A stretch of 64,000 nucleotides of DNA from NCBI GenBank assembly GCA_937139495.1, contig CAKZQC010000027.1:124001-188000 (forward strand). The letters are read 5' to 3'. This stretch comes from an uncultured Saprospiraceae bacterium. GTDB lineage: Bacteria > Bacteroidota > Bacteroidia > Chitinophagales > Saprospiraceae. The position numbers and the translations under genes are program-made. Every line of letters starts with the position of its first letter. Positions within the stretch are counted from its first letter, which is position 1. The notes beneath the pieces are model-generated. The model worked only from the letters and a program-made list of their open reading frames with translations, searched no databases and was not told where the DNA came from. Of the stretch, positions 50,705 through 63,156 are shown in pieces.

Positions 50705-51436
50705 ATGTTTGAGCTAATTAGTGCTTCCTTTGCTCCTACCAATTTGGTGTTTACCATTCCACTGATACTCATTGGGTTTTATTGGCTTAGTGTGGTAGCA
50801 GGTGTTATTGGCATGGATGCCTTTGATCTAGATATGGATCTTGACATGGATGTAGATGTTGACGTTGATTTGGACTTGGATTTAGATGTTGATGCCGATG
50901 TAGATATTGATGCCGATGGCAATCTAAAAGGGAGTGCCGCAACCACTACAGAAAGTGGTAGTGGAGACGGATTCATGATTGGAATCTTACGATTCTTCAA
51001 TTTTGGGCGAGTACCTTTTATGGTATTAATTTCTTTTATTATTCTTTTTGGCTGGGGAATTTCTGTTTGGTGCAACCATGTAGGTAGTTGGGTCAACCCA
51101 AGCAACTCTGGACTAATTGGAGCCTTACTTTTTATACCTATCTTAATTGGTAGTTTGCTCATCACAAAAATTGTCACCACACCTTTAGTACCTATTTTTG
51201 ATAAGTTCAACACCGCTGCCAAAAACTTGGTCATAGAAGGAAAAGTAGGCACTCTAATGACTTCTATAGAAAAAACACAAATCGGGCAGCTCAAAATAGA
51301 TATTGATGGTTCTATTGTTTCGTTGAGCGTAAAAGCAGACGAAGGTCAAACCCTCAAAAAAGGAGAACGAGTTGTCGTTATTCAAGAAGATGCCGACAAA
51401 AAGTCCTATTTAGTACAGCGTTTCAATCATACATAA
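50705..51436 (+). CDS. YqiJ-like OB-fold membrane protein with alternating-Asp segment
   Basis: 243 residues. TM helix 1 (VFTIPLILIGFYWLSVVAGV) is followed by residues 41-71 in which every second residue is Asp (16 Asp). Two further TM regions come next (FMVLISFIILFGWGISVW; LIGALLFIPILIGSLLI), and a C-terminal NfeD/OB-fold barrel (VIEGKVGTLMTSI, GERVVVIQEDAD). YqiJ/NfeD proteins partner flotillins in the membrane, and a flotillin gene follows 91 nt later. The Asp ladder could bind Ca2+ or other cations. Confidence 0.85.
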   Translation: MFELISASFAPTNLVFTIPLILIGFYWLSVVAGVIGMDAFDLDMDLDMDVDVDVDLDLDLDVDADVDIDADGNLKGSAATTTESGSGDGFMIGILRFFNFGRVPFMVLISFIILFGWGISVWCNHVGSWVNPSNSGLIGALLFIPILIGSLLITKIVTTPLVPIFDKFNTAAKNLVIEGKVGTLMTSIEKTQIGQLKIDIDGSIVSLSVKADEGQTLKKGERVVVIQEDADKKSYLVQRFNHT

Positions 51437-51527
51437 CATAGAAATGATACAAGTATTATAAACACAATCATTTATTCATATATCATACAATCATTATAAT
51501 TTCCTCATAAACTTAAAATAAATAAAC

Positions 51528-53654
51528 ATGATAGGTTACATCATTTTAATCATTGTAGGTGGATTAATCCTAGTAGGATTAGGTTTCCTTATTTTATTGG
51601 CAAAAGCCCACAAGAAAGTACCACAAGGTAAAGCATTGATTCGTACAGGTGTTGGTGGAGCTAAAGTCGCTCTAGATTCGGGTATTTTTGTTATCCCAAT
51701 CATGCACCGTGTCGAAGAGATGGATATTTCGCTCAAGACTATCGAAGTGAATCGTATGGCTGCAGAAGGGCTGATTTGTAAGGACAATATGCGTGCGGAT
51801 ATCAAAGTAGTATTCTTTGTGCGTGTCAACAAAGATCCTAAAATGGTCGTAGAAGTAGCTCAAACCATTGGTTGCGCTAGAGCTTCTAGACACGAAACAT
51901 TGAATAATTTATTTGATGCTAAATTTTCGGAAGCACTCAAAACCGTTGGTAAAAACTTTGACTTTGTAGATCTCTACACGGAGCGCGAAAAGTTCAAAAA
52001 TGGTATTTTGGAAACCATTGGTACTGACCTTAACGGTTATGTACTTGATGATTGTGCGATTGACTTCTTGGAGCAAACGCCTCTTTCTTCGCTAGACGAA
52101 AAAAATATCTTGGATGCTCAAGGTATCAAGAAGATTGAAGAGTTGACTTCTAATGAGCAGGAAAAAACCAATGCGATTCGCAGAAAAAGAGAACAAAATA
52201 TCAAAGAGCAAGATGTAGTCGCTCGTACCAATATTTTGAGACTCGAAAAGCAACAAATCGAAGAAGAGCAGAAGCAGAGAAAAGAGATTGCAGAACTGAC
52301 TTCTACACAAGAAAACTCTGCCAAGCAAGTTGTATTGGAGAAAGATAAAGAAACATCGCTCTTACAAAAAGACACCGAACGTGAAATCGGTCGTGCAGAA
52401 GAAGACAAGCAGCGCGAAATCATGATGGCTCGCCTCAAAAAAGAACAACTCGAAAAAGTAACGGTTCAGGAAATGCTCCAAGCAGAACAAGAAGCTATAC
52501 AAGAACGTGAGAAAGAAGTAGGTAAGCGCGAAGTAGAAAAAGAGCAAGCACTCGAAGAGAAAAGACGTGATATTCAAATTGTCATTAAAGAACGTAAGGC
52601 AGAAGAAAAAAAGACCATAGAAGAAGATCAAAGAATTCTAGATGTGCAGGAACTCATGACTGCTGAACGTAACAAAAAAGTGGCTGAATTGAAAGCTAGC
52701 CAAGAGGCAGAAATGCAGAAAATTACGCAGACGCGTAGAGCGGAAGCCGACAAACTATCGGCAGAAGTCAATGCGCAGAAAAAAATAATTGATGCAGATG
52801 CCAACATGGCTGCCGTACAGAAAGAATCGGAAGCTCGTAAAATAGCTGCCGAAGCACTCGCCCGTGAAGAGGCAACTATGGGTATCGCTGAAGCGAATGT
52901 CATGAAAGCTAAAGCCGAAGCTCGTGAAATGGAAGGTAATACAGAAGCCGCTATTTTAGAGAAAAAAGCCATGGCAGAAGCCTCTGCGACCAAAGCGAAA
53001 GCAGAAGCAGAAAAAATGAAAGGTATGGCAGAAGCCGACGTTATTCGTGAAAAAGGTACTGTTGATGCCACTATCACCGAACAAAAAGGTTTGGCAGAAG
53101 CCAAAGTAATTGAGCAAAAACTAAGTTCTGAAGCGAAAGGTATTGAAGCGAAAGCAGAAGCAATGAAACTGCTAGATGGTGTTGGTAAAGACCACGAAGA
53201 GTTCAAACTTAAATTGGCACAACACAAAGAAATCAAAATCGCTGAAATTCAGGCTCAAATGGGTATTGCTGAAGCTCAAGCTCGTGTATTGGCTACCGCT
53301 CTACAAAATGCTAAAATTGACATCGTCGGTGGCGAAACCAAATTCTTTGATAGCATTATTAATGCCGTCAATAAAGGAAAATCGCTTGACCGCTTGATTG
53401 ACAATAGTGATAACTTGACAGCTGTCAAAACGGCTCTTTTGGGTAATGGCGACGATAACTTGATTGCCCGTATTCAGGGGTTTGTAGAAAACTACAACAT
53501 TGATAGCAATGCCATCAAAAACATGACGTTATCAGCTGTATTGACTAAAATATATGCTCAAGCAAATGACAATGACCAAGGCGTAGTTATGGGCTTAATC
53601 GAAAGCGTCAGCCGACTCGGTATGGGTGGAAAAGATGCCAGCGAATTGTTCTAA
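51528..53654 (+). CDS. Flotillin-family (YqiK-type) SPFH protein
   Basis: 708 residues. An N-terminal membrane hairpin or TM (IILIIVGGLILVGLGFLIL) is followed by the SPFH/band 7 domain (about 30-230: GKALIRTGVGGAKVALDSG, CKDNMRADIKVVFFVRVNKD). A coiled coil of roughly 350 residues built of Glu/Ala/Lys repeats (KAEAREMEGNTEAA, KAKAEAEKMKGMAEA) and a C-terminal oligomerisation part complete it. Flotillins form large membrane-bound cages or microdomains. The pairing with the YqiJ-like gene matches the yqiJK arrangement known in other bacteria. A hairpin follows at 53676-53707. Confidence 0.93.
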   Translation: MIGYIILIIVGGLILVGLGFLILLAKAHKKVPQGKALIRTGVGGAKVALDSGIFVIPIMHRVEEMDISLKTIEVNRMAAEGLICKDNMRADIKVVFFVRVNKDPKMVVEVAQTIGCARASRHETLNNLFDAKFSEALKTVGKNFDFVDLYTEREKFKNGILETIGTDLNGYVLDDCAIDFLEQTPLSSLDEKNILDAQGIKKIEELTSNEQEKTNAIRRKREQNIKEQDVVARTNILRLEKQQIEEEQKQRKEIAELTSTQENSAKQVVLEKDKETSLLQKDTEREIGRAEEDKQREIMMARLKKEQLEKVTVQEMLQAEQEAIQEREKEVGKREVEKEQALEEKRRDIQIVIKERKAEEKKTIEEDQRILDVQELMTAERNKKVAELKASQEAEMQKITQTRRAEADKLSAEVNAQKKIIDADANMAAVQKESEARKIAAEALAREEATMGIAEANVMKAKAEAREMEGNTEAAILEKKAMAEASATKAKAEAEKMKGMAEADVIREKGTVDATITEQKGLAEAKVIEQKLSSEAKGIEAKAEAMKLLDGVGKDHEEFKLKLAQHKEIKIAEIQAQMGIAEAQARVLATALQNAKIDIVGGETKFFDSIINAVNKGKSLDRLIDNSDNLTAVKTALLGNGDDNLIARIQGFVENYNIDSNAIKNMTLSAVLTKIYAQANDNDQGVVMGLIESVSRLGMGGKDASELF

Positions 53655-53675
53655 ACTATTCCATTTTGATGACTG

Positions 53676-53707
53676 TGGGGCTAAGTATTACCTAGTATTT
53701 AGCCCCA
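53676..53707 (+). terminator. Hairpin between the flotillin and ATPase genes
   Basis: TGGGGCTAAGTATTA pairs with TAGTATTTAGCCCCA (two wobble positions) across a 2-nt loop; only a weak T-rich stretch follows. It may attenuate rather than stop transcription into the ATPase gene. Confidence 0.5.
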
Positions 53708-53762
53708 TTTCCTACTCTACTTAACTCCCAATATTTACACAAAAAAAGAAATCCCTCGCAAT

Positions 53763-56700
53763 ATGCCAGATGACAACAAAAATATAGATAATTCGGTAGA
53801 AAACGATGCTAACAACGAAGCAGCAGTCAAAGATACCACGCAGCTCGAAAGTGGCACTTACGAGATTATCAAAGGTAGGCTCAACAAGAGTGGAGAAAGC
53901 TTACGTAATCGTTTGGCACAGCTCAACGTAGAACGCAAAAAAGTGTTTGGTTCTATCGAGATGAAGCCGATTAACAATCAGCGTATCGAAACCGATCACG
54001 CTTGTATTGCTCGTGATATTTTTGCACTTGGCAATTATTGCATATTGGGATATAACGTCCGTATGGGACTCAAAAAAATTGAGCTGGAAGATGTTTTCTC
54101 TGTCTATCAATTTCATGACGACCAAACGTTCAAAAAAATATCGCTAGATTACTTGGTCAAAGGCAACGAAAAATTTGTCTCCGATTTCAAGAGTCTTTAT
54201 CGTTATTCCAACGAAGTATCATTCCTCAAATTTTCCCAAGACAAAAACGATCCGTTTTTCTACATGATATTTCAGGACGGTAAGTCCAAAAAAACCTTCA
54301 AGTGGGAAATCAAAGGTGATCAACTGATGTATGATTCTTCTCCTGGAGATAAAGATTATACCTACCCCTCACAATTTGAGTTTGAGTGGGTGAGTGTTCG
54401 TCGGGAAAGTATCCGCCAAGGACTTCACCCGCACATTTCTATCCTCGACAAAGTGTTTGTGGAGACCGTAGGGGGCGACCTCACCATCAAGATAGAAGAC
54501 AATACCGAAACAGGCAAAGGTATCTACGCAGAGCCTGTCAAATATGAGAAGCAAAAAATAGATGATGCCACCGTTTATTATGCGGATTTAGGCAACTTGA
54601 TTGTCCTCAAAATCAAACCCTACCAAGAGACTTTCCGCTATTTTGTTTACAATGTCAAATTGCAAACCGCTCAACGTGTCGATGCCCTCGAACACGCAGG
54701 TATTTTATTGCCCAACGGGCAAGGTCTAGTCTTCTCTAATGGTTTTTATTTGCAAACAGGCGAGTTCCGTATGTTTGACAAAACCAGTGAAGGCGGCAAC
54801 CTTTTTGAGCAACATATATTATCGCCCAACGGCGAAGATCATTTGTATGTTTTTCATGCTCCAGAACAAGGTTCTTATATCTTACTGTCGTACAATGTGA
54901 TAGAACAAAACGTCAGTACGCCCATTTTATGCCATGGTTTTACGTTGTTTCCTGATGGTGAACTGTGCTACTTCCGTAGTGAAGAAACCAAAACGCAACA
55001 CCACTTAATTCAAGTTTGGCAAACGCCTTATCTGAGAGGAAAAATTATTCCTTCTGAATACACCGACTCGCCCCTATACAAAATAACCAACAAGGATATT
55101 GTCCGAGCGATGGCAGAAAGTCAAGAAGTACTCAATCTACTTGGCAAGGACGAAACCTACTCTGATTTGTACTACGACTTGACCAAACGGTCAACCACCA
55201 TTTTGGATTCCTACCATTGGATAAAAAATGAATCAGCATTTTCCCTAAATGAACCTTTAGAAGAAATAAAAGCATCGGCTAGTGCCGCTATTGATGAGTT
55301 TGAGAAAGTACAAAACATCAAGGCTGCTACCAAAGAAGCCATCAAGGAAGTACAAAGAAAAGTAGGCGAGCTATTCCGAGAAATCGGCTCTACCTCCTAC
55401 AACCGAGTAGATCAATTTGTGGTGCATTTGGCGTCGCTGCGCACCGCTAGAGGCGAAATTATATCGCTTCGTGACCTACGCTACACCGACGAGGAACTGA
55501 TATTAGAACTCGAAGAAGAAGCTGCCGCAATCAACGAGCGTCTTTCGACCGAATGTGTCGGTTTCTTGCTCAAAGACGATGCCCTCCAACCCTACTTGGA
55601 TCGAGTGGCTGCTGCCCAATCTGAAATAGAAGGCGTAGAAACAGCTCGCCAAGGCAAGCACTTGGAAGAAAAAATTGATGCCATTGGCAAAGAGCTTGAA
55701 CTATTGATTGAGATTGTATCCAATCTGAAGATAGATGATGCAACACAAACGACCCGTATTATTGATAGTATTACAGGTATTTTTGCGACACTCAATCAGG
55801 CAAAAGCAGCTATCAAACGCCGCTTGCGAGATTTGACTGGTGCGGAGGCTGTCGCCGAATTTGCGGCTCAAGCTAAGCTATTGGACCAAAGTTTAATCAA
55901 CTACTTGGACATAGCGACCACGCTCCCCAAAACCGATGAATACTACACCAAAATGATGGTGCAGCTCGAAGAACTAGAGAGTAAATTTGCCGAATTTGAC
56001 GAATATATTCTCAAAATAACCGACAAACGAGAAGAGATAAACAATGCGTTTGAAACGCGCCGACTGTCGATAATCGAAGCGACTAACAAGCGTACTTCTG
56101 CCCTACAAAGTGCCGCAGAACGTATCTTGTCGGGTGTGCAGAACAGAGCCAACAGCTTCAAGGAAGTAGCCGAAATAAACGGCTTTTTTGCTTCTGATTT
56201 GATGATAGAGAAAGTACGGGATATTATTAACAACCTCAATGAATTGGGTGACACCAATAAGGCAGGCGATACCCAAACGAAGCTCAAAACGATCAAGGAA
56301 GATGCGATTCGTCAGTTGCGTGACAAGAAAGATTTGTATCAAGGTGATGCCATCAAATTTGGTCGTCATTTCTTCTCTGTCAATAAGCAAAAGCTAGATT
56401 TGACAATGGTACCTCGTGGCGACGGCATGTATTATCACTTGACAGGAACAGGATTTTTTGAGCCTGTCACAAACCAAGACTTTTTGCAAACCAAACCCGT
56501 TTGGTCGCAGGCGTTAGTATCCGAAAACGAAGACACCTATCGTGCAGAATATTTGGCTTATATTGCCTTTCAGGAATTGCTAAAAAGCAAAAAAGAATTG
56601 ACCTCGGAAGAGATGCTGCCTTTTATACAAGAGTTTTCGGCCAATCGCTACCACGAGGGATATTCCAAAGGAATACACGACGAAGATGCCGCTCAAATAT

Positions 56701-58742
56701 TGCAACAATTGTGGTATATGTACAAGCACATTGATTTGCTATCGTACCAATCACAGGCGAGAGCTATGGCAGCTTTATTTTGGACAAAATATTTGCCTGA
56801 AGCACAAAAAGAAACGCTACAAAAGCAGCTCAAAAGTGCTGGCGTTATTTTGCAGGTCTTTCCAGATACCAACGAATATGATTTCTTGTTGGACAAGCTC
56901 GCTATTGCTTTGGCGGACTTTGTAGCCGAAACCAAGCTTTTTGAAGCACACTTAGTGCCTATGGCAGCTCAATATCTATTCAAAGAACTATCTCGACACG
57001 ATTATTTTGTCATCAGTGGAGAAGCCTATCAATTGCAGTTAGATTTCCACAATTTTCTGAAAGAAAAAACGGCTTTAGAGCCTTTTGATAAAGCAAAAGC
57101 ATCACTAGAAGGACAATTGATAGACCAATATCAGTTGGTCAAAAAATGGATTGGGGCGTTTGTCGCACAGCTAGACAACACTGTTTATCATCATTATATT
57201 GATGAAGTGGTAACAATATTGTTGACCAATAATCTAGATAAAAAACAGGTTATCAATGTCAAAACGCAACAAGAAATAGCAGGTATGCACGGCAATCACA
57301 AAGCGGTGCAGCAAGGTGGTTTGTATCAGTTGGACTTCAATGCGTTTATGCGAAAAATGGAGCTGTACACCCGTACGACCGTGCCTTATTATGAGCAGTT
57401 TGTACAGATGAAAAAAGACTTAGTCGAAGACTTCCGTCACGAGTTGAGATTGAGCGAATTTAAGCCCCGTATTTTGAGTTCATTTGTACGTAACAAGCTG
57501 ATTGACAAATTGTATTTGCCTATTTTTGGTGATAATCTTGCCAAACAAATTGGTACTGTAGGCGACAATACTCGTACGGATCGTATGGGTATGTTGCTCT
57601 TGATCTCTCCTCCTGGATACGGTAAAACGACCTTGATGGAATACGTTGCTGACCGTTTGGGCTTGATATTTATGAAAATAAACGGTCCTGCTATTGGGCA
57701 TCATGTCACTTCGACTGACCCTAGCGAAGCCGATAACGCAGCGGCTGCCAAGGAACTCGAAAAGCTTAATTTGTCGTTTGAGATGGGCGATAATATCATG
57801 ATTTATTTAGATGATATTCAACACTGTAATCCTGAGTTTTTGCAGAAATTTATTTCATTGACCGATGGTCAACGTAAGATAGAAGGAACTTATAAAGGGG
57901 TAACCAAAACCTACGACATGCGTGGTAAGCGTGTTTGTGTTGTCATGGCTGGTAATCCTTATACAGAAAGTGGCGACAAGTTTCAGGTGCCTGATATGTT
58001 AGCCAACCGTTCGGATATTTACAACTTGGGTGATATTATTGGCGACACCAAAGAGGTGTTTGAGTTGAGTTATATCGAAAATTCGCTTACTGCCAATCCG
58101 ATACTACAGAAACTAGCGGCTAAGAGCCTCAAAGATGTTTATGGGATTGTCCAAATAGCCGAAACTGGCAGTCGTGAAGGCGTAGAGTTTGAAGGTAATC
58201 ACACGCCACAGGAAGTCAATGAGTATGTCAATGTCATCAAAAAAATGCTCACGGTTCGTGATGCGATTCTGAAAGTCAATTTGGAGTATATCCGCTCGGC
58301 GGCTATGGAAGATGCTTTCCGCACAGAGCCGTCTTTCAAGCTCCAAGGTTCTTATCGTAATATGAATAAATTGGCGGAAAAAATCGTCCCCATCATGAAT
58401 GATAAAGAACTCATGACTATGCTCGTCGCTCACTACGAGGGCGAATCGCAAACGCTAACCACGGGTGCCGAATCGAATATGCTCAAATTCAAATCTATGA
58501 TTGGAGCAATGACCGAAGCGGACGAAGCTCGTTGGGAAGAAATCAAGGAGTCTTTCCGCAAGGACAAAATGCTTTCGGGTAGCAAGGACAACCCAATGGT
58601 GCAGATGGTCGCTCAGTTTTCCGAATTTTCGGATCACCTCAAAGGCATACAGAACACTATACAAGAGGGCGTAGAAAAAGGATTGAATGCTCCTGCTCCT
58701 GTTGTCAAAAAATCGGGCGGCGTTTCGTTTAAGAAGAAGTAA
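53763..58742 (+). CDS. Giant AAA+ ATPase ('DNA repair ATPase' family name)
   Basis: 1659 residues. Residues about 1-440 are beta-rich. A long helical/coiled-coil middle follows (about 470-900, for example ILELEEEAAAINERL), then an all-helical part to about 1240. The AAA+ domain has Walker A SPPGYGKTTLMEYVADRLG (near 1280-1290), Walker B NIMIYLDDIQHCN (near 1345) and sensor-type VMAGNPYTESGDKFQVP. The form resembles MoxR-type AAA+ remodellers. Databases call such proteins DNA repair ATPases, but I know of no direct evidence for that role. Its place after YqiJ/flotillin genes argues for work at the membrane. Confidence 0.85.
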   Translation: MPDDNKNIDNSVENDANNEAAVKDTTQLESGTYEIIKGRLNKSGESLRNRLAQLNVERKKVFGSIEMKPINNQRIETDHACIARDIFALGNYCILGYNVRMGLKKIELEDVFSVYQFHDDQTFKKISLDYLVKGNEKFVSDFKSLYRYSNEVSFLKFSQDKNDPFFYMIFQDGKSKKTFKWEIKGDQLMYDSSPGDKDYTYPSQFEFEWVSVRRESIRQGLHPHISILDKVFVETVGGDLTIKIEDNTETGKGIYAEPVKYEKQKIDDATVYYADLGNLIVLKIKPYQETFRYFVYNVKLQTAQRVDALEHAGILLPNGQGLVFSNGFYLQTGEFRMFDKTSEGGNLFEQHILSPNGEDHLYVFHAPEQGSYILLSYNVIEQNVSTPILCHGFTLFPDGELCYFRSEETKTQHHLIQVWQTPYLRGKIIPSEYTDSPLYKITNKDIVRAMAESQEVLNLLGKDETYSDLYYDLTKRSTTILDSYHWIKNESAFSLNEPLEEIKASASAAIDEFEKVQNIKAATKEAIKEVQRKVGELFREIGSTSYNRVDQFVVHLASLRTARGEIISLRDLRYTDEELILELEEEAAAINERLSTECVGFLLKDDALQPYLDRVAAAQSEIEGVETARQGKHLEEKIDAIGKELELLIEIVSNLKIDDATQTTRIIDSITGIFATLNQAKAAIKRRLRDLTGAEAVAEFAAQAKLLDQSLINYLDIATTLPKTDEYYTKMMVQLEELESKFAEFDEYILKITDKREEINNAFETRRLSIIEATNKRTSALQSAAERILSGVQNRANSFKEVAEINGFFASDLMIEKVRDIINNLNELGDTNKAGDTQTKLKTIKEDAIRQLRDKKDLYQGDAIKFGRHFFSVNKQKLDLTMVPRGDGMYYHLTGTGFFEPVTNQDFLQTKPVWSQALVSENEDTYRAEYLAYIAFQELLKSKKELTSEEMLPFIQEFSANRYHEGYSKGIHDEDAAQILQQLWYMYKHIDLLSYQSQARAMAALFWTKYLPEAQKETLQKQLKSAGVILQVFPDTNEYDFLLDKLAIALADFVAETKLFEAHLVPMAAQYLFKELSRHDYFVISGEAYQLQLDFHNFLKEKTALEPFDKAKASLEGQLIDQYQLVKKWIGAFVAQLDNTVYHHYIDEVVTILLTNNLDKKQVINVKTQQEIAGMHGNHKAVQQGGLYQLDFNAFMRKMELYTRTTVPYYEQFVQMKKDLVEDFRHELRLSEFKPRILSSFVRNKLIDKLYLPIFGDNLAKQIGTVGDNTRTDRMGMLLLISPPGYGKTTLMEYVADRLGLIFMKINGPAIGHHVTSTDPSEADNAAAAKELEKLNLSFEMGDNIMIYLDDIQHCNPEFLQKFISLTDGQRKIEGTYKGVTKTYDMRGKRVCVVMAGNPYTESGDKFQVPDMLANRSDIYNLGDIIGDTKEVFELSYIENSLTANPILQKLAAKSLKDVYGIVQIAETGSREGVEFEGNHTPQEVNEYVNVIKKMLTVRDAILKVNLEYIRSAAMEDAFRTEPSFKLQGSYRNMNKLAEKIVPIMNDKELMTMLVAHYEGESQTLTTGAESNMLKFKSMIGAMTEADEARWEEIKESFRKDKMLSGSKDNPMVQMVAQFSEFSDHLKGIQNTIQEGVEKGLNAPAPVVKKSGGVSFKKK

Positions 58743-58743
58743 G

Positions 58744-58860
58744 TATTGGGATTTTTTGGATTTTTGGATTTTTAGATTTTCTCCTTGGGATGCTGTCTCG
58801 TATTGGGATTTTTTGGATTTTTGGATTTTCTCCTTGGGATGCTGTCTCGTATTGGGGTTT
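58744..58860. repeat. Tandem 49-57 nt direct repeats
   Basis: The unit starts GTATTGGGATTTTTTGG and ends CTCCTTGGGATGCTGTCTC; it occurs at 58744-58800 and 58801-58849. The first copy holds 8 extra bases, and a third copy begins at 58850 and breaks off. It is non-coding and starts 2 nt after the giant ATPase stop. Confidence 0.8.
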
Positions 58861-58876
58861 TTAACTGTAACTTGTA

Positions 58877-59000
58877 AAATCCTTTTTAATCCATCAATCC
58901 CACGAATCCAAGTTCCCACAGTTTTTTTGATTTCCTACTGGAATGTAACCTATCACTTCAAAAAAAATCCTTTTTAATCCATCAATCCCACGAATCCAAA
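58877..59000. repeat. Pair of identical 36-nt direct repeats
   Basis: The 36-nt unit beginning AAAATCCTTTTTAATCCATC occurs at 58877-58912 and 58965-59000, separated by 52 nt. With the tandem repeats before it, this fills the 302-nt gap between the ATPase and DUF4177 genes. No gene or terminator is visible there. Confidence 0.8.
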
Positions 59001-59044
59001 TACGGACATTTTTTTAAAACTCACTCTTACAAAAAACTAGAATT

Positions 59045-59248
59045 ATGGATAAATTCGAATATCAAGTGTACGAAGTCGATATGAAAAAAAAATTCTGGGG
59101 TTCTAACAAAGTAAAAACCCTAAAGCTACAAAGAGATCTAAACCTATTGGGGCAACAAGGTTGGGAGTTATCTTCTGAGATAGAAAATATAAGTGGTGGT
59201 GGCTATACCAAGGGCGTTATTTTGCTCTTCAAACGAAAAATTCAATAA
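59045..59248 (+). CDS. DUF4177 protein
   Basis: A small 67-residue protein. It has the DUF4177 pattern: an FEYQVYEVDM strand, a helix with LQRDLNLLGQQGWELSSEIE, and a C-terminal strand GVILLFKRKI. The G-W-E-L motif is the family hallmark. Function is unknown; members are often next to membrane or stress genes. It heads the last part of the cluster, 302 nt after the ATPase gene. Confidence 0.85.
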   Translation: MDKFEYQVYEVDMKKKFWGSNKVKTLKLQRDLNLLGQQGWELSSEIENISGGGYTKGVILLFKRKIQ

Positions 59249-59320
59249 TTTGAAAATAAATAGTATTCAAATCCCCCAACCCCCTTTACTAGCTGCATCT
59301 ATATAAGCAAAAAACAGCTT

Positions 59321-60052
59321 ATGAACTATTTATTTTTTGCCCTAGTATTATTACTGTGTAGTTGTCAATCACCTCCCAAGCCTACCCTAGCAGATACCAT
59401 GGCAACAGCATTGCTAAATATTGAATTGATTGATACTTTTGATAATGAATTGCGATTGGATACTGCTAGTCATATTAGTGACGCTGATTTTCATACTATC
59501 TACATTGGTATGCCTAAAGATAGCATTGTCTTGAGTTATCGTTGGCAAGAAACGATCTATAGTGATAGTGAGTTTTTCAGGAAAAGAATGACAAGGAATA
59601 CTCCTCCAATGCGTATTTATGTAGATACAACTCAGATTATTGGCGTCATGTCTAGATTCGCTCTACCTGCACCAACAGGTTGTGAGAAAATGTATGACCA
59701 ACAAGGACTTTGGATATACAGAAAGCCTATTAAAGCTTATCCTATTTTCATAAAAAACTTATTGGACACCGATACAATACGAGTAGGATACGGATATTTT
59801 TTATCTTTATTGATTGAAGCAAAAGACAGTATTGGTAATTGGCGACCGATACAAAAACCTTATCAATACAGCTGTGGCACAGGAATGACGTATCTCCATT
59901 TGTTGCCGAAAGAGATATTAGTGACTAATTGTCCACTCTTTGAAGGCGATTTCAAAACTACTTTACGAGTAGTGCATCAATACAAATCACTATACCCTTC
60001 CAACGAATTTAGTGGTACTATCAATTACAATCAGTTCAATACGCAAGATTAA
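59321..60052 (+). CDS. Lipoprotein of unknown function
   Basis: Not recognised. 243 residues with a lipobox (LVLLLCSCQS). The mature protein has mixed beta strands (FHTIYIGMPKDSIVLSYRW, IRVGYGYFLSLLIEAKD) and two Cys residues in CGTGMTY and TNCPLFEG that may pair. It lies 10 nt before the first DUF3137-like gene, so it is probably part of that operon and gives it an outer-membrane or periplasmic member. Confidence 0.75.
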   Translation: MNYLFFALVLLLCSCQSPPKPTLADTMATALLNIELIDTFDNELRLDTASHISDADFHTIYIGMPKDSIVLSYRWQETIYSDSEFFRKRMTRNTPPMRIYVDTTQIIGVMSRFALPAPTGCEKMYDQQGLWIYRKPIKAYPIFIKNLLDTDTIRVGYGYFLSLLIEAKDSIGNWRPIQKPYQYSCGTGMTYLHLLPKEILVTNCPLFEGDFKTTLRVVHQYKSLYPSNEFSGTINYNQFNTQD

Positions 60053-60062
60053 ACCCTAGCCC

Positions 60063-61061
60063 ATGCAAGAGCAAAACCAACAAGAACTAGAGCGATTGGA
60101 GCAGTTGCGCAAGCGTATACATAAGTGGCACAAAGCCACTCATATCTTGTATATATTGCCAATTTCCCTCTATATAATTACAATAACACTCGAAGCGTCT
60201 CAGGAGTTGAAAGTGGCACTTTTTTATTGTTCTATTTTAATTTTTCCTATGGTTACGCTATACCTAATGGACCGCATAGCTACTAATTATACAAAGAAAA
60301 ATAAATCAAAGGTATTGAACGTACTGTTGAAAGAGCGCTTTCCTAACCTCTCTTGTATTAATCAATTTGACAATGCTGCTATTGCCTCCTATCCATTATA
60401 TCCTTTCTTCAGGGAGCTGGGTGGCAAGATACAGATAGAACATTCTTTCCACTACGAAACGAAGTCTTATACCTTGGATTTTGCAACGGCAACTAATATC
60501 TTTGAGCAAGACACACCGAATATAAGAACTATATCTTTCTTATTTAACTTTACTGATTTGCAATTACCCGCTACCAAAATTGTATCTAAACAACGAGTAA
60601 ATTCACCAAGTGATATAGATGCAATGAGAGGAGCTCTTTACAAGATTCGTTTCCATGAAGTTAGTCAATATATCGAACAACATTGTTTGGTCTATGGGGC
60701 TACGCTACAAGAGGCTGTACAGTACAAGATTGTTGTCCAAATTGAACATCTCATTGTATTCTTGATCGAAGAATGGAGCGAAGAATTTCATTTGGTCTTA
60801 GAGGATAAAAAAATGCTCTTGACTATAAAATCTCCGCCAGATTTGATGGACTTGCCGCTTCAACATGCTATTGATGAAGCAATGACCGATCAACTCACAG
60901 AAGACTTAGAACGGTGTGTTGAAGTAGCAGATGTTTTGTTGGCAATAGTCGAGGAAATACAAAACGAAAAACTAAATCGTGACTTTATTAGCGAAAAAGC
61001 ACGCCTCACAGAAGAAAAAAAATCAGGCGATGATTTCTATGATCATTTAGTAGATTATTAA
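60063..61061 (+). CDS. DUF3137-like membrane protein, paralog 1
   Basis: 332 residues. A charged N-terminal helix (EQNQQELERLEQLRKR) is followed by two TM helices (ATHILYILPISLYIITITLE; VALFYCSILIFPMVTLYLM). A large cytoplasmic domain then has strands and helices in the DUF3137 order (KSKVLNVLLKERFPNLSCI; SEEFHLVLEDKKMLLTIK). It ends with the shared tail SGDDFYDHLVDY. The first 50 nt of the gene are identical to those of paralog 2, although the rest is highly diverged. Function unknown. Confidence 0.8.
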   Translation: MQEQNQQELERLEQLRKRIHKWHKATHILYILPISLYIITITLEASQELKVALFYCSILIFPMVTLYLMDRIATNYTKKNKSKVLNVLLKERFPNLSCINQFDNAAIASYPLYPFFRELGGKIQIEHSFHYETKSYTLDFATATNIFEQDTPNIRTISFLFNFTDLQLPATKIVSKQRVNSPSDIDAMRGALYKIRFHEVSQYIEQHCLVYGATLQEAVQYKIVVQIEHLIVFLIEEWSEEFHLVLEDKKMLLTIKSPPDLMDLPLQHAIDEAMTDQLTEDLERCVEVADVLLAIVEEIQNEKLNRDFISEKARLTEEKKSGDDFYDHLVDY

Positions 61062-61078
61062 TTCGTACATTCGACCCT

Positions 61079-62068
61079 ATGCAAGAGCAAAACCAACAAG
61101 AACTAGAGCGATTGGAGCAGTTGCGCAAAAAAAAGCTAACCCTCTATAATACGATCAATCTATTATTCCTGCCATTATTCTTTCTTATGGTAGAGTATAT
61201 ACTTCCGTATATCTATACATTGACGCAATTTCCATTTATACTTCTAGCCATAGGTTCTCTACTAATTTTTTACTTGCTGTTCAATCATTTTATACTCCAA
61301 CCCATATCCAATCGCTATGCAGCGGATTTCAAACCCAAAATAGTAGCACTATTTGTACAAGAATACTACCCTGCAATTGTCTATCAATCCCAAGATAAAT
61401 TTCCTCCAAGCACAATGATGGATTATGATATTTATCGCAGGAGTCCCCACGCTACAGAAGAAGATGTATTCAAATTTGATTCTACCGAAAAATACACCTT
61501 CCGTTTATCTACCATAAACCCACCGCACTATCGTGCTACAAAATCAGAAAAAGACGTAGTCCTATTCTTTGAATTCAAAGAAAAAATATTTCCCACGATT
61601 CAGATTGTCTCCAACGAAAGCCTCAACGACAAGCGGGAACTCAAGTCGTTTCTCAAAATCCAGCAATCGCTTCCTCCTATCAAAAACAACAAAAAATATA
61701 CAGTTTATCATTCCTCTATGGAGCAAAAAAAAGAAAAAGAAGTTCTTTTGGAATTGGAACAATTGATGAAGTTTATCAAAGGGAAATGGGGTGAAAAATT
61801 TCGCTTATATCTCGATGAAAATACGTTATTTATAGGCATAGAAAAGGCTTATGATTCGTTTAGTATACAATTAAAAGAATCTCTTACCGAAACCGAAGGA
61901 TTGAGTACTAGTATAGAAACAGAACTAGCCAAATATATCCAAATGGTAGATTTATCTTTGATTGCATTGGGCAATATTACCAATCAAACATTTGGGGAAG
62001 CCTACAAAGACCGTCTGAATAGTAACCTATCAGGCGATGATTTGTATGAGCACTTGGTAGATTATTAA
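61079..62068 (+). CDS. DUF3137-like membrane protein, paralog 2
   Basis: 329 residues, 17 nt after paralog 1. The same plan: charged N-terminal helix, two TM helices (TINLLFLPLFFLMVEYILPY; FILLAIGSLLIFYLLFNHF), then the cytoplasmic domain with FKPKIVALFVQEYYPAIVYQ, EDVFKFDSTEKYTFRLS and GEKFRLYLDENTLFIGIEKA. The C-terminal tail is SGDDLYEHLVDY. The EDVFKF word is also present in paralog 3, showing these two are closer to each other in the core. Confidence 0.82.
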   Translation: MQEQNQQELERLEQLRKKKLTLYNTINLLFLPLFFLMVEYILPYIYTLTQFPFILLAIGSLLIFYLLFNHFILQPISNRYAADFKPKIVALFVQEYYPAIVYQSQDKFPPSTMMDYDIYRRSPHATEEDVFKFDSTEKYTFRLSTINPPHYRATKSEKDVVLFFEFKEKIFPTIQIVSNESLNDKRELKSFLKIQQSLPPIKNNKKYTVYHSSMEQKKEKEVLLELEQLMKFIKGKWGEKFRLYLDENTLFIGIEKAYDSFSIQLKESLTETEGLSTSIETELAKYIQMVDLSLIALGNITNQTFGEAYKDRLNSNLSGDDLYEHLVDY

Positions 62069-62145
62069 TTAATTGTTCCAGCTATTTTTGTTAACGAAGT
62101 TATTTTAAAAGTCTATTCCCAAAACGCCCTATTCAATTATTAGCC

Positions 62146-63156
62146 ATGACAACAGAAATTCAGGACAATATAATTCAGTTAGAAAAAAATCGAAAAAAGA
62201 AGTACCCATTATACCGAGCAGCTCACGGTCTATATGTTTTACCAATTATTTCCATTCTATATTCTTCACAGTTTCCCCCACACCAACCATTTTGGATTGT
62301 ATTTTTTTTGCTGCTTGCTCCAATATTACTTTCGGTAGTGCTACACTATCTCGTTATTAGCCCCATCGCACGTTCTTATTCCTGCAAGTTCAAGGCTACC
62401 ATTGTCAAAACTATAGTCAAAGAATATTATCCAAATGTGCACTATGACACCGATAAGTTACCCATAAAAATTGACCTATTTATGTTTGTTCTGCAACTAA
62501 AATATCACCAAGATTTTTCGGTGGAAGATGTATTCAAGTTTGAGCAAGACGATTATTCATTTAATTTTTTAGAATTCAACTCAAGTCCCTTACAACGGTT
62601 TAGGAGAGCAAAAAGCGTTCTTTTTAATTTTAAATTTCCTAAAAAAAGTCTTCCCAATTTTTCGATTTTCGCTAAAAAACTACCGCCCAACCTACTCTAT
62701 TTGGCTAAGAAACAGGACGATGAACTAAAAAATATAAATTTGGCTAGAATCAATCGTTATTTGCATAATAATTGTCTAATTCGCGCTGATGACGAATCTA
62801 CTATTCGACAAATAAAACTCCTTAACATAGAAAAACTCGTCCAAGCACTAATGGGCAACTGGAGTGAAAAATTTTACTTACAGAGCAAAGAAGATACCTT
62901 ATCTTTTGGTATAGAAATAACACACGATTTTTTTGAGACGTACCTCCATACTCCCGTCAACCCCAAACAACTATTTAATCAAGTATTGCTGGAACTCAAA
63001 CAATACTTTGACATCGTAGATACACTCCTATCTTTTGCCGACCTGTTACGAGCCGAAACTTCGCAACGAACTTACCAAAGAAAATACAATGGCGCCCCCC
63101 TTAACTCATCTGATAACTCAACAGATGATTTCTATGATCATTTAATCAACTATTAG
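62146..63156 (+). CDS. DUF3137-like membrane protein, paralog 3
   Basis: 336 residues, 77 nt after paralog 2. The N-terminus is different in sequence (IQDNIIQLEKNRKKKYPLYR) but again precedes two TM helices (FWIVFFLLLAPILLSVVLHY is the second). The core has FKATIVKTIVKEYYPNVHYD and VEDVFKFEQDDYSFNFLEF, then SEKFYLQSKEDTLSFGIEIT. The tail STDDFYDHLINY repeats the motif of the other two. It is the last gene of the cluster; a MITE follows. Confidence 0.82.
   Translation: MTTEIQDNIIQLEKNRKKKYPLYRAAHGLYVLPIISILYSSQFPPHQPFWIVFFLLLAPILLSVVLHYLVISPIARSYSCKFKATIVKTIVKEYYPNVHYDTDKLPIKIDLFMFVLQLKYHQDFSVEDVFKFEQDDYSFNFLEFNSSPLQRFRRAKSVLFNFKFPKKSLPNFSIFAKKLPPNLLYLAKKQDDELKNINLARINRYLHNNCLIRADDESTIRQIKLLNIEKLVQALMGNWSEKFYLQSKEDTLSFGIEITHDFFETYLHTPVNPKQLFNQVLLELKQYFDIVDTLLSFADLLRAETSQRTYQRKYNGAPLNSSDNSTDDFYDHLINY

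Follow-up and report, generated by a model that had tools for sequence, protein, structure and literature searches.

In a 64,000-nucleotide stretch of an uncultured Saprospiraceae bacterium (contig CAKZQC010000027.1, positions 124,001 to 188,000; hereafter the window), three adjacent genes were found that encode a YqiJ-like membrane protein, a flotillin and a large AAA+ ATPase of the DUF3686 family. This yqiJ-flotillin-ATPase trio, whose members are linked in genomes of many phyla, is the real unit at the locus. We consider it probable that the ATPase is an ATP-driven remodeller acting on a flotillin-NfeD platform and that the system serves membrane-stress maintenance. An earlier note on this DNA, made from its letters, had described eight same-strand genes at the locus, and all eight are indeed present on the + strand.

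The yqiJ, flotillin and ATPase genes are linked across phyla

Neighbourhoods of the ATPase gene came from three sources: relatives belonging to the window's genus, order or phylum; plasmid records; and a species-genome scan, in which at least 587 relatives of the ATPase were confirmed and 80 were kept. Linkage was then counted with profiles of the core genes at the 91 loci having at least 3.5 kb upstream of the ATPase gene. A same-strand flotillin gene was located beside or just upstream of the ATPase gene in 87 of these loci, including 84 within 6 kb and three more in which the ATPase start overlaps the flotillin end, and a same-strand YqiJ-like gene accompanied the ATPase gene in 81. Removal of one duplicate locus gave 86/90 for flotillin and 80/90 for YqiJ. 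The linked loci span phyla from Bacteroidota to Actinomycetota. Exceptions were three loci without a nearby flotillin (L022, L068 and L096) and one with flotillin on the opposite strand (L073); in G022, the genome of L022, flotillin is encoded on a different contig. The earlier note had taken the first three genes for a module and had said that a lack of ATPase-flotillin linkage in other genomes would refute its reading; the linkage is found there, and this part of the reading is supported.

Within the window's genus, the ATPase was found in 8/9 sampled species. The sole sampled congener without it, G005, is without flotillin too, which fits flotillin and the ATPase being one unit. Across the phylum the ATPase is patchy (10/395 sampled genomes), and the module also occurs on plasmids, for example pQBR103. 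Clustering of the flanking open reading frames (ORFs) showed no further constant partner of the module; the widest cluster comprised 14 loci, on both strands and at scattered distances, and looks like a common regulator family.

Variation within the trio was also observed. Three congeners (L024, L025 and L026) carry inserted genes of 606-611 aa between flotillin and the ATPase, two of them adding genes of 913 and 203 aa, and at some loci, L021, L025 and L027 among them, short second SPFH-like ORFs separate yqiJ from flotillin.

The ATPase carries a predicted propeller and a MoxR-like AAA+ module

Pfam matches of the 1659-aa ATPase were DUF3686 (E=8.6e-165), DUF7902 (E=1.7e-27) and AAA (E=7.2e-07). 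The structural model of its N-terminal part (residues 1-520; predicted local distance difference test score (pLDDT) 84.8) contains a WD40-like beta-propeller at about residues 65-422, with the WDR domain of DCAF1 as the top match (Z=9.9, root-mean-square deviation 5.8 over 221 residues). The coiled-coil middle carries DUF7902 at residues 606-689 and is followed by a helical region. In the model of the C-terminal part (residues 860-1659; pLDDT 83.8, predicted template modelling score 0.68), a MoxR-like AAA+ module is predicted at about residues 1235-1582. In VIA-align comparisons, the nearest fold to this module was CbbQ (Z 16.9, 3.7 A over 253 residues), followed by NorQ (Z 16.1), with dynein and Clp domains ranking lower; CbbQ and NorQ are 12-16% identical to the module. 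Spastin, which has a classical, Vps4-like AAA fold, stood at rank 32 of the Foldseek list for the module and was absent from these top VIA-align rows. The model further shows a beta-hairpin between Walker B and sensor 1 (strands at about residues 1372-1377 and 1380-1385), while the helix-2 hairpin, a MoxR-type insert, is not visible in the secondary structure of the C-terminal model.

Residues K1288, T1289, D1350, D1351, N1398, R1416 and R1532 are invariant in 105/105 ATPase sequences, covering Walker A, Walker B, sensor 1, the arginine finger candidate R1416 and sensor 2. Domain scans detected no protease domain in the protein. Taken together, the intact catalytic residues and the modelled folds make it very likely that the ATPase works as an AAA+ motor and that its propeller serves for binding.

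The YqiJ-like and flotillin proteins

The YqiJ-like protein matches YqiJ_N at E=3.6e-04, just below the Pfam cut-off, and the NfeD C-terminal domain at E=0.029, likewise below it, and three members of its homologue set match YqiJ_N, the best at 3.6e-08. Hydropathy indicates three transmembrane-like segments (residues 4-23, 97-126 and 133-162), and the C-terminal domain is putatively OB-like. Between the first and second segments lies a long Asp-rich stretch, DLDMDLDMDVDVDVDLDLDLDVDADVDID, which is possibly a cation-binding element. A shorter Asp-rich stretch occurs in several Bacteroidota YqiJ-like homologues.

The window flotillin has no Pfam match of its own, Band_7 included, and Band_7 was matched by 1/11 scanned flotillin homologues (E=9.3e-11). 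Its identification rests on homologues annotated as 'flotillin family' or 'SPFH domain-containing', and it is 34-49% identical to flotillins from other genera and phyla. The protein appears to consist of one N-terminal membrane segment (transmembrane-like, residues 1-28), an SPFH-like region and a long coiled coil with Ala/Glu-rich repeats; the flotillin profile matched the QmcA chain 8z5g_A at E=2.7e-04 in the coiled-coil part only. By Pfam alone, the assignments of the YqiJ-like protein and flotillin are weak, and they are supported by the homologues and by gene position.

PspA and CesT are encoded apart from the ATPase in the window's genus

At the 91 ATPase loci, PspA is encoded in cis in 42 and CesT in 40. 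The window genome has a single PspA, located beside a CesT/Tir protein (CesT_Tir_1, E=4.9e-46) on contig C20, separate from the window's contig, and a separate CesT-PspA pair is also present in those congeners where PspA was found. Within the window's class, DUF3686 and a strong PspA match (E of 2e-32 or better) mark exactly the same set of sampled genomes, and in the rest of the phylum PspA is common without DUF3686. Of 60 relatives, 8 encode both the ATPase and PspA, 3 the ATPase without PspA, 1 (G005) PspA without the ATPase, and 48 neither, an overlap with a Fisher p of 5.5e-07, uncorrected for kinship.

In an ATPase tree (FastTree, simple model, midpoint root), the window, its congeners and three loci from Saprospiraceae fall into one group, and each locus of this group either has no PspA in cis or does not extend far enough to show it; the larger group enclosing it commonly has PspA in cis. 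Loss of the cis linkage to PspA in the window's lineage is a reasonable reading of this midpoint-rooted, simple-model tree. A divergent XRE-type helix-turn-helix (HTH) gene, on the opposite strand, is present in 40/40 loci with CesT-PspA in cis, and the one such gene scanned (L046, 3844-4599) matches Peptidase_S24 as well. In the window genome and the congeners tested, no full-length relative of the HTH regulator known from other Bacteroidota was found, only partial matches, the best of them (E 2.9e-07) in the window's genome.

A probable remodeller on a flotillin-NfeD platform

By analogy with QmcA-YbbJ, a membrane-bound SPFH cage or platform is probably built from flotillin and the YqiJ/NfeD protein at the inner membrane. 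The soluble ATPase would dock on this platform via its beta-propeller and coiled coil and would form an AAA+ ring through its MoxR-like C-terminal module; under envelope stress it would spend ATP on remodelling protein assemblies at the membrane or taking them apart. CesT-PspA, which the window genome encodes at a different locus, would be the likeliest partner and substrate. The role in membrane stress that the earlier note had considered agrees with the genomic link to PspA reported by Ravi et al. 2024 (PMC11237479). More specifically, and only tentatively, a motor of the MoxR type rather than the Vps4 type might be recruited by the flotillin-NfeD cage and dismantle or load ESCRT-III-like PspA polymers at the inner membrane, a bacterial counterpart of ESCRT-III/Vps4 drawn from a different ATPase branch, with motor and polymer encoded apart in this genus.

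Several observations weigh against the remodeller reading. PspA is encoded in cis at under half of the loci; G005 keeps CesT-PspA though it is without flotillin and the ATPase, and the pair can therefore stand alone; and a strong PspA match is missing from three genomes that encode the ATPase, namely G022 and the fragmented drafts G001 and G029. Moreover, the ATPase has no obvious membrane segment by hydropathy, and its nearest folds, CbbQ and NorQ, act with VWA-domain partners. The contact between the proteins, the stress role and the substrate are what we infer, and the remodelling of flotillin or PspA assemblies is deduced from how the genes are linked and from what related folds do. With a constant flotillin partner, a PspA pair that can change locus and a congener lacking flotillin and the ATPase together, the question of what drives PspA and flotillin assemblies in bacteria becomes directly testable.

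The ATPase might instead be a chaperone that, like CbbQ and NorQ, activates or assembles a specific membrane enzyme that the flotillin platform holds, with PspA having no direct role. The nearest AAA+ folds are these two MoxR-type activators, and flotillin and yqiJ are steadier partners of the ATPase than PspA (87 and 81 versus 42 of 91 loci), but no recurrent client enzyme was seen in the flanking-ORF clusters, the functions of which were not systematically annotated, and strong PspA matches coincide with DUF3686 in the window's class. We therefore hold the chaperone reading to be unlikely.

Less likely still is an anti-phage or anti-toxin defence module guarding membrane integrity. The patchy distribution in the phylum and the occurrence on plasmids such as pQBR103 suggest horizontal transfer, and the PSP system takes its name from a phage response. 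However, PADLOC gave no match on the ATPase, flotillin or YqiJ (weak matches, E of about 6e-04, fell on one DUF3137-like protein alone and were taken as chance), a scan of viral contigs found no close relative of the ATPase, and no recurrent defence family was noticed among the flanking-ORF clusters, again with function not systematically annotated. The presence of the ATPase in nearly all sampled species of the genus is also unlike that of a fast-exchanged defence gene. Phage defence, which the earlier note had raised beside membrane stress, thus gains no support in this analysis, and the remodeller on a flotillin-NfeD platform remains the reading we prefer.

The genes downstream of the core are neighbours rather than parts of the module

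Five further genes follow the ATPase gene on the same strand (Table 1), and the earlier note had suggested that they extend the module. The gaps between the eight genes are, in gene order, 91, 108, 302, 72, 10, 17 and 77 bp. The largest, between the ATPase and DUF4177 genes, holds AT-rich direct repeats with units of 30/49 nt and 52 nt, the 49-nt and the 52-nt unit each occurring twice; the 52-nt unit has a 31-nt core that, within the window, is confined to 58743-59015. A scan for sigma-70-type promoters gave 38 sites against 34.2 in shuffles, which is no excess.

Table 1. Features of the locus, in coordinates of the 64,000-nt window.
Feature	Position	Strand	Basis
YqiJ/YuaF (NfeD-like) membrane protein, 243 aa	50705-51436	+	YqiJ_N match, hydropathy, linkage
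Flotillin/SPFH-like scaffold, 708 aa	51528-53654	+	Homologues, linkage, QmcA profile match
DUF3686-family AAA+ ATPase, 1659 aa	53763-58742	+	Pfam, models, invariant motifs
AT-rich direct repeats, border of conserved core and non-conserved tail	58743-59015	.	Repeat search
DUF4177 gene, 67 aa	59045-59248	+	DUF4177 E=4.5e-09
Lipoprotein gene	59321-60052	+	ORF call
First DUF3137-like gene	60063-61061	+	Paralogue of second; without Pfam match
Second DUF3137-like gene	61079-62068	+	DUF3137 E=1.5e-04, below cut-off
Third DUF3137-like gene	62146-63156	+	DUF3137 E=5.1e-04, below cut-off

That all eight genes make one module, with the lipoprotein, DUF4177 and DUF3137-like proteins as envelope partners of flotillin and the ATPase, would agree with the shared strand, the mostly short gaps and the DUF4177 gene found inside the operon at some loci. 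Comparison with other genomes argues against it. At 0/89 other non-redundant ATPase loci is there a lipoprotein or DUF3137-like gene of this kind, and the closest congener homologues are about 21-40% identical and unlinked to the ATPase. A DUF4177 gene occurs in 7/89 other ATPase loci, always between pspA and yqiJ, and the congeners carry a single DUF4177 gene apiece, at a distance from the ATPase. The first and second DUF3137-like proteins are paralogues (27% identity, E=1.8e-24), and the window genome has eight DUF3137 matches at several places. In addition, the 302-bp gap with its repeats splits the core from the tail. The eight-gene module was thus rejected, since the tail genes are not recurrent at ATPase loci and their congener homologues lie elsewhere; we regard it as very unlikely. 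Neither the proposed extension nor a kept linkage of DUF4177 and DUF3137 genes to the ATPase, which the earlier note had asked about, was borne out, and the most fitting view of the five genes is that of a neighbourhood which is local and specific to the lineage.

The loci with DUF4177 inside the operon are L124, L125, L127, L128, L129, L131 and L137, from Weeksellaceae, Sphingobacterium and Paenimyroides. Four further DUF3137-like genes are clustered at about 10.0-14.3 kb of contig C12 in G000, the same genome as the window.

The name 'DNA repair ATPase'

That the ATPase acts in DNA repair, with flotillin merely anchoring it near the membrane, is highly improbable: the Pfam text for DUF3686 reads 'ATPase involved in DNA repair' and RuvB is its best PDB sequence match, a weak one confined to the P-loop, but the recurrent neighbours are membrane-protein genes, repair genes are not recurrent in the flanking-ORF clusters (function not systematically annotated), and in the VIA-align list CbbQ and NorQ come closer to the AAA+ fold than RuvB does. 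As the earlier note had remarked, the name is not explained by a context of flotillin and YqiJ, and it gains no support here. The family, carried by many genomes, is named for DNA repair, yet its context is a membrane scaffold, which makes the name questionable.

Comparison with known systems

CbbQ and NorQ, the solved structures whose fold is nearest to the AAA+ module, remodel other proteins and activate Rubisco and nitric-oxide reductase, respectively. These MoxR-type AAA+ activators are small and stand-alone and have VWA partners, whereas the module in the window is the C-terminus of a 1659-aa propeller protein. Like the yqiJ-flotillin pair, QmcA-YbbJ of E. coli (PDB 8z5g) is an operon pair of an SPFH scaffold and a small NfeD membrane protein. 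However, QmcA belongs to another SPFH subfamily, with the flotillin profile match limited to its coiled-coil part, and that complex is without a DUF3686 ATPase. An AAA-type ATPase and an SPFH cage also come together at the inner membrane in HflK/C-FtsH (PMC12048511). Different from the DUF3686 ATPase, in which neither a transmembrane-like segment nor a protease domain was found, FtsH is a membrane-anchored protease.

A text search of a paper library found no paper mentioning DUF3686 and none in which 'DNA repair ATPase' appears together with flotillin, and it found DUF3137 mentioned in two unrelated papers only. The core itself has already been described. Ravi et al. 2024 (PMC11237479) report operons of CesT/Tir-PspA, band-7/flotillin, an AAA+ protein with a beta-propeller and YqiJ/YuaF, and, from genomic evidence, regard this core as extending the envelope-stress system of PspA. 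The paper also names abbreviated operons without PspA, for which PspA encoded elsewhere is suggested. The window shares the three core genes with those operons, its ATPase has domains of matching kinds, and its YqiJ/YuaF-like, band-7/flotillin and beta-propeller AAA+ genes are adjacent, as in the module defined there; with CesT/Tir-PspA outside the window, the locus corresponds to the abbreviated form. PspA-CesT is located at another locus in the window's genus, as that paper suggested could happen. On plasmid pQBR103 (L056), a YjfI-PspA-rhomboid-DUF2491-DUF350-DUF1190-glutathionylspermidine synthase block is continuous with the SPFH-ATPase genes, uniting two operon types that are listed apart in PMC11237479.

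The divergent XRE-type regulator, the in-operon DUF4177 gene and the MoxR-like AAA+ fold are unnamed in that main text, which does not mention XRE, LexA or S24. The association of the core genes is already published, and the system is of a kind known from genomic association. Relative to that main text, four details may be new: the likeness of the AAA+ fold to MoxR, the divergent regulator that is constant beside CesT-PspA, the variant with DUF4177 and, in the window's genus, the splitting of the system over two loci.

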